This document shows positions 6,353-24,066 of a DNA stretch of 64,000 nt, one piece after another (within the stretch, counting starts at the first letter, position 1; each line of letters opens with the position of its first letter). Below the pieces are notes generated by a model that saw only the letters and a program-made list of their open reading frames with translations, was not told where the DNA came from and did not search any database. The stretch is from Thalassotalea sp. LPB0316 (lineage in GTDB: Bacteria; Pseudomonadota; Gammaproteobacteria; Enterobacterales; Alteromonadaceae), in the NCBI RefSeq assembly GCF_014898095.1, contig NZ_CP062946.1, positions 2,790,001 to 2,854,000 of the forward strand, written 5' to 3'. Made by a program: the position numbers and the translations under genes.

Positions 6353-7405
6353 ATGAGCACTATAGATACTATTTCTGATCTTCTTAACTTCTCAGGCAGC
6401 CAATTTCGCGTTTTTGATATCGGTCGCCGAATTGATAAGATTTCAAAAACAGACTTTGAAAAAATAGAAACCTGCCAGTTACCGTACCCATTTCCAATAC
6501 AAGGTCACGCTCATATCGCAATCGCCTTTTGGCAAAAATCTTCGAAGACGCCTTATTTGTGGTTTATAAAATTACCGCTTGATGAACGAGGCTTATTAAA
6601 TCAGGGTGCTCGCAACCACTTTATTGCCATTATTGTTGAAGCGCTAGGTAATGACTTAACCGTTGACCCAACCGAGCAGCAAGAAGAGCTATTAAAAAGT
6701 AACCCTTATCACTTTACGCCAGCGCAATACAAACTCGCCTCGTTAAATGCCAAGTTAACCGTTGAATTAAAGCAAAAAGCTAGCAGCTACTACGAGCATG
6801 CACAGCACTACTTTTCAGGTAATTTAGGTTGGGATGATTGGCAGTCACTTGGGGTGCAAGGTATTGCTGACTTTGCGGCGAGATTATCGAATAACGAAAA
6901 CGAACAAGCGTTAATTAACGCACTCGCACATATCCCACTTCAAGTGTTTAGCGTGCTCGCAAGTGCGCTTGAAAACGAGGCTTTATCGGCAAAAATGATT
7001 GAACGCTTGATTAAGCGGTATCACAGCGCTCAAACCCCTGATGAAAAACAACAAGCATTGCGAGCACTTGCCTCAAACTGCCAGCACCCGCATGTTGTTG
7101 CCCTCATTGCTTCATTGCTTAGTGCAGAAAATCGAGCGCAAAGTCAGGTGCTATTACCTGCGGATTTATTGATCATTATCTCGGGAAGATGTTGGCAAGC
7201 ACTAGCACAGGGCGATATGATGATGCTGTATTTAGAGCAACTGGCGAAACTAAATGATACAAACTTGTTCAGTGCAATATTTAAAGATATGGTATCAATA
7301 CCACTATTAAGGCACATTGTGCTTGCTGCAATTCGCTCTGAAAATCGCAGTGAACAATTGGCCAAGGCGATTGGTCAGTTATTTAATCAAGCCGGTAGCC
7401 ATTAG
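6353..7405 (+). CDS. DUF3549-family-like conserved protein
   Basis: The ATG at 6353 gives a 350-residue protein starting MSTIDTISDLLNFSGSQFRVFDIGRR; a TTG at 6335 is a weaker alternative. The N-terminal third is mixed alpha/beta (FDIGRR, then IAFWQKSSKTPYLWFIKLPLDERG). The rest looks like a helical, HEAT-like array rich in Leu and Ala. I recognise the pattern as the gammaproteobacterial DUF3549 family, with no assigned function. It has no signal peptide, so it is probably cytosolic. It is followed 23 nt later by a DUF3301-like gene, likely in one operon. Confidence 0.65.
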   Translation: MSTIDTISDLLNFSGSQFRVFDIGRRIDKISKTDFEKIETCQLPYPFPIQGHAHIAIAFWQKSSKTPYLWFIKLPLDERGLLNQGARNHFIAIIVEALGNDLTVDPTEQQEELLKSNPYHFTPAQYKLASLNAKLTVELKQKASSYYEHAQHYFSGNLGWDDWQSLGVQGIADFAARLSNNENEQALINALAHIPLQVFSVLASALENEALSAKMIERLIKRYHSAQTPDEKQQALRALASNCQHPHVVALIASLLSAENRAQSQVLLPADLLIIISGRCWQALAQGDMMMLYLEQLAKLNDTNLFSAIFKDMVSIPLLRHIVLAAIRSENRSEQLAKAIGQLFNQAGSH

Positions 7406-7428
7406 TTGATGATTAAACGAACATAGTC

Positions 7429-7731
7429 ATGGAAAATATCTATTATTTACTCTTCGCATTTTTAATTTTTTGGTATTTTATTTACCTGAGAAAAATCGCG
7501 GAAGCAGGTAAAAAGCACGTATTGCTTTATTGCCAGCAAAATCAATTACAGTTTATCGATGTCGCTCGTCGCTCTAGCCGACTGAGCTTTAACAAGCGCG
7601 ATGGATTGTTCTGGCAAAGTATTTTTGATTTTCATTTTAGTGGTGACGGTGAAGCCGCCTACCAAGGCGTGATGACGTTAAAAGGCTTGAAAGTTCAAGA
7701 CATTACCACCCCTGCATTTAGAGTACATTAA
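7429..7731 (+). CDS. DUF3301-family-like small membrane-anchored protein
   Basis: A 100-residue protein with one N-terminal membrane helix (residues about 3-20, IYYLLFAFLIFWYFIYLR) and a basic, soluble C-terminal part containing YCQQNQLQFIDVARRSSRLSF, a stretch typical of DUF3301 proteins as I know them. Function unknown; it is presumably anchored in the inner membrane facing the cytoplasm. It follows the DUF3549-like gene closely. I am fairly sure it is a real gene and less sure of the family name. Confidence 0.7.
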   Translation: MENIYYLLFAFLIFWYFIYLRKIAEAGKKHVLLYCQQNQLQFIDVARRSSRLSFNKRDGLFWQSIFDFHFSGDGEAAYQGVMTLKGLKVQDITTPAFRVH

Positions 7732-8946: not shown

Positions 8947-10335
8947 TTATTTAGCCTTTCGACGAAAGCCCAATAGCATCAACATCGTACCGAACAGAAC
9001 AACTGTTGAAGGCTCTGGTACAGACACAGAGTCAGTATCGAAAGTAATAGCTGTCATCGAAACATTAGTTGTTTGACCTTGTACGCCACCATAGTTAATA
9101 CCCGTAACAAAAGCCATGTCGTCGGTAGGATCTAACTCGAGGCTCGGATTAATACCGCGAATCTCAAATTCACTGACCATATCCCCTAAGCTCCAGAAAT
9201 AACTATCACCAGCCATTAATGTCGCAATAAACGCACCATCTACCCAAAGTTCATAGCCATCAATATCATTGACCGATGCTAACGAAGGCATAGTAACTTC
9301 GGTGAAGTAGCCGTCTGAGATTGCATATGCGTAACCTACTGAAACAATTGGGTCAATCCAAATGGTTTGTTCAGGTACTGGTGGTAAATCGAAGTTAAAT
9401 GCACCGTTTTCATCAGGTTCACCATTATTGGGTAAAATAGGGATAAATTCACTTTGGCCTTCGCCGCCAAACGCCGCTAAAAAGACAGCTGAATCTACTG
9501 CGCTATCCCCTGTATCAGCGATAATAATATCAAAGACGTTGTTGGTTGAGCCTGGTACAACGGGTATATCAAAACGCAATAATGGATTGCCATTGGGTTG
9601 CAGGAAGCCATTTAGTGGTGCCCCTTCAAGAGGCCCCATATCAGGATGATTAATATTTACCGCTAATGGTGTATCACCTGGCGCCGCCCCCGTTTCTTGG
9701 ACCGCTGCAAAGTTTTGACCATTTAAATACAGACCAAAACCGTCAATGAAACCTGAACCAACAAAATCAGGAAATTCATTTGAGCCAAACGCGCCTAGAA
9801 ACGATAAAGTATCTGTGTTCGCGTCAACGTCAAAGGTAATGGTTAATTGTGCAACATCATTGTGTTGAAACCCAGGACTGTTGCCCGAAGTAATAGGATC
9901 TAAGAGGTTCTCCTGAGCTTCAGTGGCGGCTGAACCCGGCGAAATAACGATATTCTGCCCTGTTGGACCAGCAGAGAGAATTGATACTGCACCAAATTCA
10001 CCAAAACATTCTTCGCCTTCACATTCACCTGGACCATCGCCTGGTCCTTCGCCAGGACCTTCTACAGGATAATTCAAATCTAAGACATTACCCGTACTTA
10101 ATACGATACCAGGGCTTGGTAAACCCGTGACACCTGTATCACCGTCGTAAACACCGGTAGCGATACCTGTCGAACTCAAATCAACATTGGTCACATTAAT
10201 ACCAGTAGTGCCATTGAGTGTAAGAATATTCGACAATGTAATGCCATCACTTTCTGACGTTATTACTTCAGCGTATGTAGGGAGCGCTGCGAACAATCCT
10301 GCAGCAATTAGGGGGAGTGTTTTTTTTGTATTCAT
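8947..10335 (-). CDS. PEP-CTERM protein with choice-of-anchor L-like N-terminal domain
   Basis: Exported surface protein of 462 residues. A signal peptide covers residues 1-22 (ending LPTYA), and a C-terminal PEP-CTERM tail at 439-462 begins VPEPST, with a membrane helix and a basic RRKAK end; this is the sorting signal processed by an exosortase. The first part (SDGITLSNILTLNG...GIVLSTGNVLDL) resembles the choice-of-anchor L domain. Between them is a Gly/Glu/Pro-rich stretch (GPGEGPGDGPGE) near residue 95. No exosortase is in this window. The role is probably extracellular or biofilm-associated; no enzymatic motif is visible. Confidence 0.8.
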   Translation of the reverse strand: MNTKKTLPLIAAGLFAALPTYAEVITSESDGITLSNILTLNGTTGINVTNVDLSSTGIATGVYDGDTGVTGLPSPGIVLSTGNVLDLNYPVEGPGEGPGDGPGECEGEECFGEFGAVSILSAGPTGQNIVISPGSAATEAQENLLDPITSGNSPGFQHNDVAQLTITFDVDANTDTLSFLGAFGSNEFPDFVGSGFIDGFGLYLNGQNFAAVQETGAAPGDTPLAVNINHPDMGPLEGAPLNGFLQPNGNPLLRFDIPVVPGSTNNVFDIIIADTGDSAVDSAVFLAAFGGEGQSEFIPILPNNGEPDENGAFNFDLPPVPEQTIWIDPIVSVGYAYAISDGYFTEVTMPSLASVNDIDGYELWVDGAFIATLMAGDSYFWSLGDMVSEFEIRGINPSLELDPTDDMAFVTGINYGGVQGQTTNVSMTAITFDTDSVSVPEPSTVVLFGTMLMLLGFRRKAK

Positions 10336-17781: not shown

Positions 17782-17817
17782 AACAAACAAAGATTAGACA
17801 CAGAGCTGGTTGATAAT

Positions 17818-17844
17818 AGTAAGGCAGATTTATTCTGCCTTACT
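17818..17844. terminator. Hairpin after lipoprotein gene
   Basis: An 11-bp stem (agtaaggcaga, 17818-17828, and tctgccttact, 17834-17844) with a 5-nt loop. No long T tail follows, so it may be a weak or Rho-assisted end. Confidence 0.5.
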
Positions 17845-18128
17845 CGAACGGGTTAAAAGATAAAGTTAAAAGCTAAACAAAAAAAGCCTAACAACATCAA
17901 AAGAGGCGAGTAATTTGATGTCAACGCTTCACTTCGATCAAACGTTAACTTTAATAACTCCGGAGAAAGATAAACGGCGTAAATAATTAGTATAATATGA
18001 ATAAGTCTTAACTCGAACTGTCAGACTCGATTAACAGAACTCAATCAAATCTGACAGTCGCAAATGTGCCAACTGCCGCCGTTCGCTTATTAAACTTCAA
18101 TACATTTTACTTTGCGAAAACAGCCGCT
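17845..18128. other. Non-coding stretch beyond the integron cassettes
   Basis: No gene was found. It contains a 9-bp inverted repeat (actgtcaga at 18017-18025 and tctgacagt at 18050-18058). It represents the chromosomal side of the last attC site; no further cassette with a matching R'' box was found here. Confidence 0.4.
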
Positions 18129-18229
18129 CGGTAACGCCCTGTTAATGGGCGGATTACGCTTGGCTATAATTAGCGAAGAATGAGCGCCAGCCAAGCAGTA
18201 AGACGTCCATTTTAAACAGCTTGTTATAT
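18129..18229 (-). other. attC: Integron attC recombination site (cassette 1)
   Basis: On the minus strand this runs from TATAACAAGC (R'' side) to GGGCGTTA (R' side). Nested complementary arms lie between: AATGGACG against CGCCCATT and GCTTGGCT against AGCCAAGC, around an unpaired centre. This is the single-strand hairpin architecture of Vibrio/Shewanella-type attC sites. The decisive mark is that the R'' flank TTGAAATATAAC is the exact complement of the cassette's own start GTTATATTTCAA, as required if it excised as a circle. Confidence 0.88.
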
Positions 18230-18230
18230 T

Positions 18231-18638
18231 TCAATTGTTTGCCTCAGTCAATTTGACATCATATTTGCGACCTGACTCCGTTTGAATTGTGCAAGTACAA
18301 TCATAGGTTGGCAGTTCAAAAGCTATTTTTCTTGAAACTGAAAAGTCGTATTTAATTTTGAACTGACTTAGCTGAATAGATTCAAAACCATATTTTACGA
18401 TTTGCTGGCAAACAAAATCCTTTAGTGGAACTAACAATTCACCTGTTATCCCTGTATTTAAAATTTCAGGAGTGTACTCAAAAGCCAGCAAATCAATTTC
18501 GACTATATCTATGCCGTTTGCTTTAGCCACCTTTTCCAAATGGTTTATAGCGTAGTCAGTTTTCCAGTAAAACAAAGTACTCGCAAAATGGTGAGGAATA
18601 TTATGAGCCAATGATTTGAGTGGCTTCAACGACGGCAC
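18231..18638 (-). CDS. Integron cassette protein 1, unknown
   Basis: A 135-residue protein starting at a GTG with a strong ribosome-binding sequence (aaggag) a few bases upstream. It is soluble, with no signal peptide. The N-terminal half is helical, with ATLFYWKTDYAINHLEKVAKANGIDIVEIDL; the C-terminal half is beta-rich, with an FELPTYDCTCTIQTESGRKYDVKLTE strand pair containing CTC. I do not recognise a family. It occupies most of a 524-bp gene cassette (boundary bases 18658 to 18135) and reads in cassette orientation, with its attC immediately downstream. Confidence 0.75.
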   Translation of the reverse strand: MPSLKPLKSLAHNIPHHFASTLFYWKTDYAINHLEKVAKANGIDIVEIDLLAFEYTPEILNTGITGELLVPLKDFVCQQIVKYGFESIQLSQFKIKYDFSVSRKIAFELPTYDCTCTIQTESGRKYDVKLTEANN

Positions 18639-18652
18639 TTTCTCTCCTTGAA

Positions 18653-18756
18653 ATATAACGCCCCAATAAGGGGCTGATAAATGCTTGGCTAAACTGTGTA
18701 GCGGAGCGGAACTGAGCCAAGCTTTAGCAGTCCCGTACTTAATTGGCTTGTTAGGT
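18653..18756 (-). other. attC: Integron attC recombination site (cassette 2)
   Basis: On the minus strand the element starts with R'' ACCTAACAAGC and ends with GGGGCGTTATAT. Internal complementary arms are ACGGGACTG against CAGCCCCTT and GCTTGGCT against AGCCAAGC, with an unpaired terminal loop. R'' with its flank (GTAAACCTAAC) is the exact complement of the cassette start GTTAGGTTTAC at 19084-19074. Together with the site at 18129 this shows two consecutive cassettes in the same orientation. Confidence 0.9.
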
Positions 18757-18761
18757 TTACT

Positions 18762-19073
18762 TTACTGAGTAGCAAGCCAATAAACAATATACGCACTTAA
18801 CAACACAGTAGCATAAGGTATTGAAATTAATATTAACTTTAGCCCTTTGCCTGATGTGTGATGAAGTAACCCCAAATAACGCTCAGCGTGATTAGAAGAA
18901 TTTAAATAAGCTTTTGTTAAAAGGTAGTTTGTCCATTCGTTGTTTGAATAAGTGGAACAGATCCCTGAGACTTTACTTAGCAAGTAACCTGAATGTCTCG
19001 CCAACAGTGCTAAAGGCAATCCAATTATTGCGTAAAAGATCAAAATAAACTTTAAAAGTTCTACTATTTCCAT
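18762..19073 (-). CDS. Integron cassette protein 2, small membrane protein
   Basis: A 103-residue protein with two predicted membrane helices (residues about 8-26, ILIFYAIIGLPLALLA, and 78-98, LKLILISIPYATVLLSAYIV) and a hydrophilic segment between them. Function unknown. The ATG lies 10 nt inside the cassette boundary, typical of integron cassettes, which often rely on upstream transcription. The cassette spans 19083-18659 (425 bp). No resistance or toxin motif was recognised. Confidence 0.75.
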   Translation of the reverse strand: MEIVELLKFILIFYAIIGLPLALLARHSGYLLSKVSGICSTYSNNEWTNYLLTKAYLNSSNHAERYLGLLHHTSGKGLKLILISIPYATVLLSAYIVYWLATQ

Positions 19074-19079
19074 GTAAAC

Positions 19080-19150
19080 CTAACAATTTAATAGTGCGCG
19101 ATTTGCGCATTTTTCTGATTTGCAATCGCGCACTTTTCTGAATGAGTTAG
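19080..19150. other. Third attC-like or attI-proximal palindrome
   Basis: A 71-bp imperfect palindrome between ctaac (19080-19084) and gttag (19146-19150), with an 11-bp perfect inner stem (agtgcgcgatt, 19093-19103, and aatcgcgcact, 19124-19134). It directly abuts the cassette 2 boundary, where an attC or attI should be. It lacks the AACAAGC...GGGCGTTA flavour of the other two sites, so its identity is uncertain. Confidence 0.45.
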
Positions 19151-19506
19151 TTTTAACAAAGTTCATAAGCTGTTGCTAGCGTTATTAAAAATATACATTG
19201 TTAATTTTTTAGGAAAGACAAAAGTGCGCAAATTGCTCATTTTCCTGAATATAGGGGGAAGCGACCTGACACTGACTTTATAAACAGTTATTTTTGCCAA
19301 ATTTATTATTTTGTTAAACATCCGTCCGCTTTGTAGAAGTTGAAGAATAATGTCTTATCTTCATCGTCGTCCGTTGTTCGCTCATAACTGTCTGTCAGAT
19401 GAAGTCCAAACCTATTTATCGAAACTGTAAGATCAGATATGAGCTACTACATATAATACCCAACACTTCCATGAACATAAGGTTACTCCTTGTTACCTGA
19501 GAAATT
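19151..19506. other. Non-coding flank between cassettes and AraC gene
   Basis: No gene was found. Near 19222 is agtgcgcaaattgctcat, a diverged copy of agtgcgcgatttgcgcat at 19093, so the palindrome unit is partly repeated about 130 bp away. Otherwise AT-rich with no integrase remnant. Confidence 0.4.
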
Positions 19507-23523: not shown

Positions 23524-23787
23524 ATGATTTCACTCACAGCTAATGAGTTAAAAAAAGGTGGGGTAACTGCCTTAGATAAAGCAATGCAAAATGATACTGA
23601 TCATAAAGTTGTAATAGATGTCAGAGGAAAGCCAAAATATATGGTTCTAGATATTAGCGAATACAATGCTTACCGAGAATATGAGTTAGACAAAGCAATA
23701 GCCGAAGCAAAAGCTGACTACAATGCTGGAAAATATGAAGTTGTCGATAACTTTGATGAACTTGCTAAAGAACTCAATCAACCATAA
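23524..23787 (+). CDS. Type II antitoxin, Phd/YefM-like
   Basis: An 87-residue protein. The N-terminal MISLTANELKKGGVTALDKAM and the following VVIDVRGKPKYMVLDISEYNAYREYE match the Phd/YefM DNA-binding fold ('sv.efk..g' start, 'v..rGkp..v..s.eey'). The acidic C-terminal tail (AKADYNAGKYEVVDNFDELAKEL) is typical of toxin-neutralising ends. It precedes the toxin gene by only a few bases. It probably binds its own promoter, where an inverted repeat overlaps the -10 box. Confidence 0.85.
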   Translation: MISLTANELKKGGVTALDKAMQNDTDHKVVIDVRGKPKYMVLDISEYNAYREYELDKAIAEAKADYNAGKYEVVDNFDELAKELNQP

Positions 23788-23796
23788 GAGTTGCCT

Positions 23797-24066
23797 GTGC
23801 TAAAAATAATCCGCCCTCTTAGCTATAAAAAACGAGAAAAGAAGTTTTTTAAAAAACACCCCGAACTGATAAATCAGTACACTAAAGCACTTCAACTCCT
23901 AAGTTTAGATATAAAACACCCATCACTTAGACTTCATGAGATAAAAAATAAAGGGGGCCACTCAATTTCAATTAATATGCAATACCGCGTATTGCTCACA
24001 TTAGAGTTTTTAGAAAATGGTGACGTGATACTCATTGATGTTGGCGATCACGATATTTATAGGTAA
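23797..24066 (+). CDS. Type II toxin, RelE/ParE superfamily
   Basis: GTG at 23797 is preferred because aagag sits six bases upstream; a TTG at 23791 is the alternative. The 89-residue basic protein has the RelE/ParE pattern: FFKKHPELINQYTKALQLLSLDIKHPSLRLHEIKNK, then SISINMQYRVLLTLEFLENGDVILIDVGDHDIYR, with the late Arg, Asp and His-containing GDHDIYR end typical of mRNA interferase-type members. Paired with the Phd/YefM-like antitoxin, 9 nt upstream. RNA cleavage is inferred from the family. Confidence 0.85.
   Translation: MLKIIRPLSYKKREKKFFKKHPELINQYTKALQLLSLDIKHPSLRLHEIKNKGGHSISINMQYRVLLTLEFLENGDVILIDVGDHDIYR

Follow-up and report, generated by a model that had tools for sequence, protein, structure and literature searches.

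Cassettes and attC sites at the locus

The window, a stretch of 64,000 nucleotides forming part of the complete 3.55-Mb chromosome of Thalassotalea sp. LPB0316, had been described from its letters as holding, at 18129-19084, two integron gene cassettes without an integrase (CALIN) in a chromosomal locus. That interval does correspond to the cassette pair; the full unit is bigger and, including the target duplications, extends from 17991 to 19458 (Table 1).

Table 1. Features of the locus, in window coordinates; the arrow marks the crossover point
Feature	Position	Strand	Remarks
Left target-site duplication copy, TATAATA	17991..17997	.	
Whole non-autonomous element, 1454 bp, left to right end	17998..19451	+	Ends found paired elsewhere; 7-bp duplication
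Left end, starts TGAATAAGTC, holds palindrome CTGTCAGA...TCTGACAG	17998..18071	+	Model R3, 100.8 bits
attC2, recombination site of cassette 2	18129..18229	-	74.6 bits, E=2e-15
Cassette 2, 524 bp, TT to G	18135..18658	-	
Cassette 2 ORF, 135 aa, GTG start	18231..18638	-	Predicted model with pLDDT 85, no PDB match
attC1, recombination site of cassette 1	18653..18756	-	97.8 bits, E=5e-21; 97% identity to an integron A attC
Cassette 1, 425 bp, TT to G	18659..19083	-	
Cassette 1 ORF, 103 aa, putative membrane protein	18762..19073	-	
attI core CGCACTATTAAATTG↓TTA, docking point of cassette 1	19081..19098	-	Shared with other loci
attI and leader, remnant of lost integron	19080..19293	-	81% identity to pre-intI stretch of L101
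Right end, TCGCTCATA...CTACTACA	19378..19451	+	Model R2, 102.3 bits
Right target-site duplication copy, TATAATA	19452..19458	.	

The 64-kb window was searched with a covariance model built from 14 attC sites of the two integrons found elsewhere in this genome (integrons A and B), the window sites being excluded. The two proposed attC sites are real: both were matched strongly, where a lack of matches had been named as grounds for rejecting them. The sole further match was an antisense echo of attC1 (23.6 bits). When the attC2 region was folded as single-stranded DNA, either strand was better than 200 of 200 shuffles (z -3.6 and -4.0); the folding of attC1 was weaker (z -1.6, with 18 of 200 shuffles as good; other strand z -2.8, 2 of 200). 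The cassette lengths were reproduced exactly. The start of cassette 2 pairs with the complement in its own attC at 12 of 12 bases, and for cassette 1 the 11 bases given previously pair and the 12th does not.

Both ORFs were confirmed, and searches of Pfam and NCBIfam gave no match above cut-off for either product. A resemblance of the 103-aa protein to BcsF was sub-threshold (18.3 bits, cut-off 23) and was not trusted; this protein has one relative apart from itself. The 135-aa protein gave 14 matches, one of them the copy of its own genome, and is 94% identical over 73% of its length to a shorter protein of Thalassotalea euphylliae. Its predicted structure, a usable model, had no PDB match at E<=0.001, and the search of viral contigs found none either. 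A search of the window against Rfam at gathering thresholds gave no match and is uninformative here. Two small adjoining ORFs at 23524-24066 of the window resemble, by eye, a RelB/RelE-type toxin-antitoxin pair.

An attI site without intI

The first cassette is docked at G↓TT in an attI site. Its 18-bp core is identical in the window and in five other loci (L175, L128, L099, L101 and L113), and in L102 it differs by one mismatch. The 214 bp preceding cassette 1 match the stretch directly preceding intI in L101 (genome G077), a locus in which intI itself is broken, containing stops and scoring below the family cut-off. Truncated intI copies are common. Since the similarity of the window to L101 is lost before the intI start codon is reached, and 19378 is already the first position of the right end, no intI codon is left beside attI, and the locus, with its docked cassette, contains no intI gene. 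Cores of attI with no detectable intI were also seen in L099, L102 and L113, outside element ends, so that loss of intI beside a kept attI is not confined to this element.

In the literal sense the CALIN reading stands, as there are two attC sites, the minimum for the class, with no intI beside them, but it is incomplete: the docking of the cassettes in attI points to an integron that lost intI and not to a bare attC cluster. The statement that no integrase is present is correct for the window, where tblastn with both resident IntI proteins found none, but other parts of the genome encode integrases, and the attC sites there match those of the window.

Integrons elsewhere in the genome

The genome-wide search recommended for intI and a larger array identified two genes above the NCBIfam integron-integrase cut-off, at 736.6 kb (integron A) and 2619.2 kb (integron B), the latter, about 188 kb off, being the closest intI to the locus. 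The attC model found 33 sites in the whole genome at E<=1e-4: seven beside integron A and a further, weaker site at 743.5 kb, 18 beside integron B, four at 253-254.7 kb, one at 1164 kb and the two in the window. The four-site cluster (L115 5121-6723, genome 253120-254722) has no intI nearby, and no element ends were found there; the site at 1164034-1164135 (minus strand, L048) is a lone, degenerate attC-like sequence of 56 bits behind a 76-aa ORF. Within integron B (L047), a near-identical 100-aa cassette protein is encoded three times (6424-6726, 7255-7557 and 9963-10265) and a 127-aa cassette protein twice.

The identity of attC1 to one attC of integron A extends over 98 bp, and sites up to 98% identical to attC1 are present in other genomes of the family; the window and the resident integron thus draw on the same cassette type. 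The attI of integron A has its last 13 bases, TATTAAATTGTTA, in common with the window core and mismatches it at four of the first five positions, so that recognition of the window core by IntI-A is not assured.

Ends and target-site duplication of the element

The block formed by attI and the cassettes lies between two asymmetric ends, with TG at the start and CA at the finish, flanked by exact 7-bp copies of TATAATA. From the TG the termini can be read as imperfect inverted repeats, alike at 18 of 32 positions (by eye), and a strong hairpin was predicted in the left end when folded with RNA energies. The two cassette ORFs are the only ORFs of the element, which has no tni genes. The description as a chromosomal locus was incomplete: what lies there is a transposed element, bounded by defined ends and flanked by a duplicated 7-bp target.

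Fixed synteny in relatives, which had been named as the mark of ordinary chromosome, is absent. The lipoprotein gene of the left flank occurs in 12 of 59 genomes searched, including this one and both others of the genus, and in both of the latter the DNA after the gene differs. A search for a precise empty site of the element found none. In other parts of this genome, weak matches were seen to the right end at 2317300 (52 bits) and to the left end at 1842572 and 3126035 (38 and 36 bits), possibly old remnants.

A family of elements with the same ends

A search of 118 genomes of the host family with window positions 17782-19500 returned attC sites and two short co-occurring stretches, the latter in one orientation with varying DNA between and around them. 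Models of these ends matched at least 53 (right) and at least 49 (left) of 196 family genomes, with at least 95 right and at least 119 left matches among those scored; all are lower bounds, as filters were strict and at most 25 candidates per genome were scored. Within 25 kb, 47 pairs had the order left-then-right, against four right-then-left and two neighbours of opposite orientation, one partial left-end match (G112:C2, model positions 17-67) being omitted from the count.

Rescanning of 52 loci gave 48 assembled left-right copies, which range in length from 986 to 18,663 bp with a median of about 1.95 kb; the longest, L183, has weak ends and is doubtful. Five of 57 right-end matches (L102, which has no left end, and four with E 0.0018 to 0.025) and one of 53 left-end matches (L163, E=0.0011) were not used in assembly. 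As L110, L158 and L159 are orthologous, and likewise L150 and L170, the 48 copies represent 45 sites.

An exact 7-bp duplication flanks 18 of the 48 copies, and at least six of seven positions agree in 26; the other 30 have no exact duplication. Shuffling of partners 500 times gave no exact duplication and a mean of 1.07 with at least six matching positions. Exact duplications were also found for 13 of the 39 copies outside the model-building set. All 18 fit the pattern NNTWANN, against five of 96 background 7-mers, and this pattern directly followed 15 of 20 unpaired right ends. In the orthologous pair L150 and L170 only two and five of the seven positions agree. A plausible right terminus beside a duplication was seen in about four (L276, L287, L284 and L275) of the 19 left ends that had no partner, and a convincing left end for only one (L303) of the 20 unpaired right ends. 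In L169 (13156-13391) a right end is followed by the bases GT and then by a 160-bp copy of the left-end region, 100% identical; this tandem right-left junction may reflect the route of transposition.

Cargo of the copies

The interior sequence of the copies is little shared: eight pairs have more than 150 bp in common, mostly at the ends. Fourteen of the 48 contain attC sites, and in 34 the model detected none, so integron cargo is frequent but not general. Inside the copies (155.6 kb) lay 25 of 27 scored attC sites, and two lay outside (189.8 kb); nine of 36 matches (five in L114 and one in L102, both incomplete pairs, and three with E>0.001) were left out of this count. The density is about 160 per Mb inside copies. 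Over ten complete family genomes taken together it is about 8 per Mb, a figure (331 sites in about 41 Mb) obtained with a slightly stricter limit.

Truncated intI remnants were found inside L172 and L176, at the right end. In G147, a degenerate right end (47 bits) has a full-length intI at a distance of about 135 bp, and the contig stops before any left end. Among 25 intI/attC loci tested, two had a right end (in G147 and in the genome of L172) and none a left end, and neither resident intI of the present genome has a right end beside it; most chromosomal integrons of the family are thus not in such elements.

Other cargo includes a retron-type reverse transcriptase beside a SEFIR/TIR protein (L171), an AriA-type ATPase (L174) and AbiU/AIPR (L103) as defence genes, a GIY-YIG protein, an ion channel, a solute-binding protein, a beta-lactamase-family serine hydrolase and a methyltransferase; MerR/MerC, LysR/LysE and a metal-efflux set were named by eye. 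Phage-defence cargo was noted at L171, L174, L103 and L251.

Replacement of cargo in place

In two Thalassotalea genomes a single site is taken by L150 in one and by L170 in the other, with flanks 95% and 88% identical. Their common right end reaches exactly to the attI crossover, and they also share the stretch from the attC crossover (GCG↓TTACC and GCG↓TCACC) to the left end. The cassettes between these points are unrelated, with a short-chain dehydrogenase in L150 and two other genes in L170, and neither locus gives an IntI match. The pair resembles a natural experiment, with a dock that lacks intI apparently refilled at the correct crossover points; an integrase in trans could have produced the pattern, as could an intI that both copies have since lost. 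Similar sequence is kept beside the left end in L175 and L108.

L110, L158 and L159 represent one shared insertion, with flanks 87-97% and ends 93-99% identical and a common imperfect duplication (CATTAAA/CACTAAA). They carry three unrelated cargos, in none of which was attC detected. For this change of cargo, recombination between ends or flanks is as likely an explanation.

Search for a transposase

No cognate transposase for these ends was found in any copy read, paired or unpaired. ORFs were listed for each of the 48 copies; 29 of the proteins, and the plasmid protein sets of one further copy, were searched with Pfam, and the remaining ORFs were judged by eye. Three candidates appeared, none of which recurs with the ends: an IS110-type ORF in L184 and an IS30-type ORF in the doubtful copy L183, both recognised by eye, and an IS30-type transposase of plasmid CP004847 (Pfam HTH_38 and rve). 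For several cargo proteins Pfam gave no match, which makes an enzyme of a new type conceivable, yet the copies share little interior sequence. Since no transposase could be tied to the ends, transposition in trans is what we infer; exchange by IntI in trans is inferred too, from the comparison of copies.

Interpretation of the locus

As in non-autonomous DDE transposons, the ends are paired and the target-site duplication has a fixed length. The attI core, the recurring ends and the duplication together indicate that the locus is probably an integron dock, consisting of attI and two cassettes without intI, carried by a non-autonomous DNA transposon, which we could not match to a known family. 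A DDE-type transposase from outside would join the target, at a 7-bp stagger, to the TG...CA ends. The IntI of integron A or B, encoded in another part of the genome, would exchange cassettes at the attI and attC sites of the element, and the element would then be a mobile cassette dock dependent on two enzymes in trans. The integron would have been captured between the ends before intI was lost. As a broader and only tentative proposal, the two-ended elements of the Alteromonadales may be mobile, refillable docks, with about 74 bp at each end sufficing for movement by an enzyme in trans, attI filled in trans and resident cargo replaced in place.

Two other origins of the locus were weighed. 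The presence in the genome of two IntI genes with matching attC sites, and the insertion at attG reported, according to texts that cite it, by Loot et al. (2024), would agree with off-target insertion, in which a resident IntI put both cassettes into a non-classical site, neither attI nor attC. However, the cassettes begin exactly at an attI core common to six other loci, and the 214 bp beside them have 81% identity to an intI-proximal leader; because attI is present, insertion at attG was rejected, and we give it almost no credence. A sedentary integron could also have decayed in place by loss of intI, the flanking repeats being unrelated to its presence. The loss is real, truncated intI copies are common and attI without detectable intI occurs outside such ends (L099, L102 and L113), but here the attI-cassette block sits between ends that recur as pairs with unrelated cargo and that carry an exact 7-bp duplication, which makes decay in place very improbable.

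For a dock carried by a transposon, the nature of the mover and of the cargo exchange also had to be considered. A tyrosine-type site-specific recombinase with a 7-bp coupling sequence, in place of a DDE transposase, is unlikely: A-T rich targets and the tandem right-left junction of L169, with its 2-bp spacer, would fit circular intermediates, but identical, variable 7-mers flanking 18 copies are the mark of staggered DDE insertion, and we know of no coupling-sequence system that regularly leaves identical flanking 7-mers. Turnover of cargo by homologous recombination of incoming DNA with conserved ends or flanks, and not by IntI, is a possibility to be taken seriously, although we incline against it. 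The single insertion of L110, L158 and L159, with three unrelated cargos and no attC detected, speaks for it; change points at the attI and attC crossovers, as in L150 and L170, are not predicted by it. Both IntI exchange and homologous recombination may operate in the family.

Relation to known systems

No description of such an element was found in the open-licence literature of PubMed Central. The locus resembles the CALIN class of IntegronFinder in that its attC sites, at least two in number, have no intI beside them, but it keeps attI and its cluster is the cargo of a two-ended element. According to the available part of the IntegronFinder 2.0 survey of RefSeq genomes, CALIN (2961) and complete integrons (2760) are about equally frequent. 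The origins listed for CALIN in the available parts of PMC8618304 are off-target insertion, proposed by Cury et al. as cited there, loss of intI and rearrangement; carriage by a transposon is not among them. Here one CALIN is the cargo of a transposable element, other copies of which repeatedly carry attC, attI or intI remnants.

With class 1 integron transposons of the Tn402 type the element shares the order end, (intI), attI, cassettes, end. Tn402-type transposons have their own tni genes and a 5-bp target duplication; the present element has neither tni genes nor intI, has other ends and a 7-bp duplication. It would work like a Tn402-type integron transposon, but it is not a member of that family. 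Class 1 integrons with MITE-like flanks, as far as the available account goes, are similar in having non-autonomous ends around an integron: Gillings et al. are said to have reported in 2009 MITE-like structures, two repeats of which flank a complete class 1 integron. In contrast, the present element has two unlike ends and has lost intI, and its ends are also found around many cargos that are not integrons. That Tn402 captured a chromosomal integron is described in the available parts of PMC8618304.

TIMEs, mobile insertion cassettes and further non-autonomous transposons, in the parts of PMC4133298 covered, are likewise devoid of a transposase, bounded by terminal repeats, loaded with varied genes and moved in trans; the repeats of TIMEs, unlike those of the element, are of the Tn3 type and 38 bp long, their duplications measure 5 or 6 bp, and those parts mention no integron dock for them. 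SEs, in the available parts of their description, are also mobile elements of marine Gammaproteobacteria with defined ends, but carry their own recombinase genes, whereas no recombinase gene was recognised in the elements described here.

Elements with the same ends and other cargo in related marine bacteria suggest docks that would be moved and refilled by outside enzymes. If this is true, they would represent a class of mobile integron that encodes neither recombinase, an additional origin of CALIN, and a vehicle used in common by genes for defence and metal handling and by cassette genes. It would also offer a testable route by which sedentary chromosomal integrons could seed cassette docks across the genome, species and plasmids.

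Occurrence in other genomes, phages and plasmids

Scanning 84,980 species genomes for the pattern yielded 41 stretches, 30 of which have a clear right end (at least 49 bits); these belong to Thalassotalea, Colwellia, Pseudoalteromonas, Gayadomonas, Catenovulum, Psychrosphaera, Arsukibacterium and MAG contigs, one of the latter labelled Thalassovita. The 11 others, from Enterobacterales genera, Saezia and Chryseobacterium and including four stretches from Alteromonadales (L187, L190, L193 and L201), were all treated as chance. In an order-level search of 394 genomes, at least 15 matched at E<=1e-6, including two that belong to other families; in one of these two (L303) a left end lies 2468 bp away and the duplication differs by one base.

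Carriage by phages was not supported: the right end had no match in the phage collection, and among four viral contigs holding the pattern the right-end model scored 23.6-27.2 bits in three and gave no match in the fourth.

Among plasmid records, the right end was found in 24, mostly of Alteromonas and Pseudoalteromonas, and the left end in five. Five of six plasmid regions fetched have both ends in the same orientation (L251-L254 and L256). In L252 an annotated integron integrase lies between the ends, and the attC model found no site in the interior. The right-end matches include three Proteus plasmid records and one of Photobacterium.
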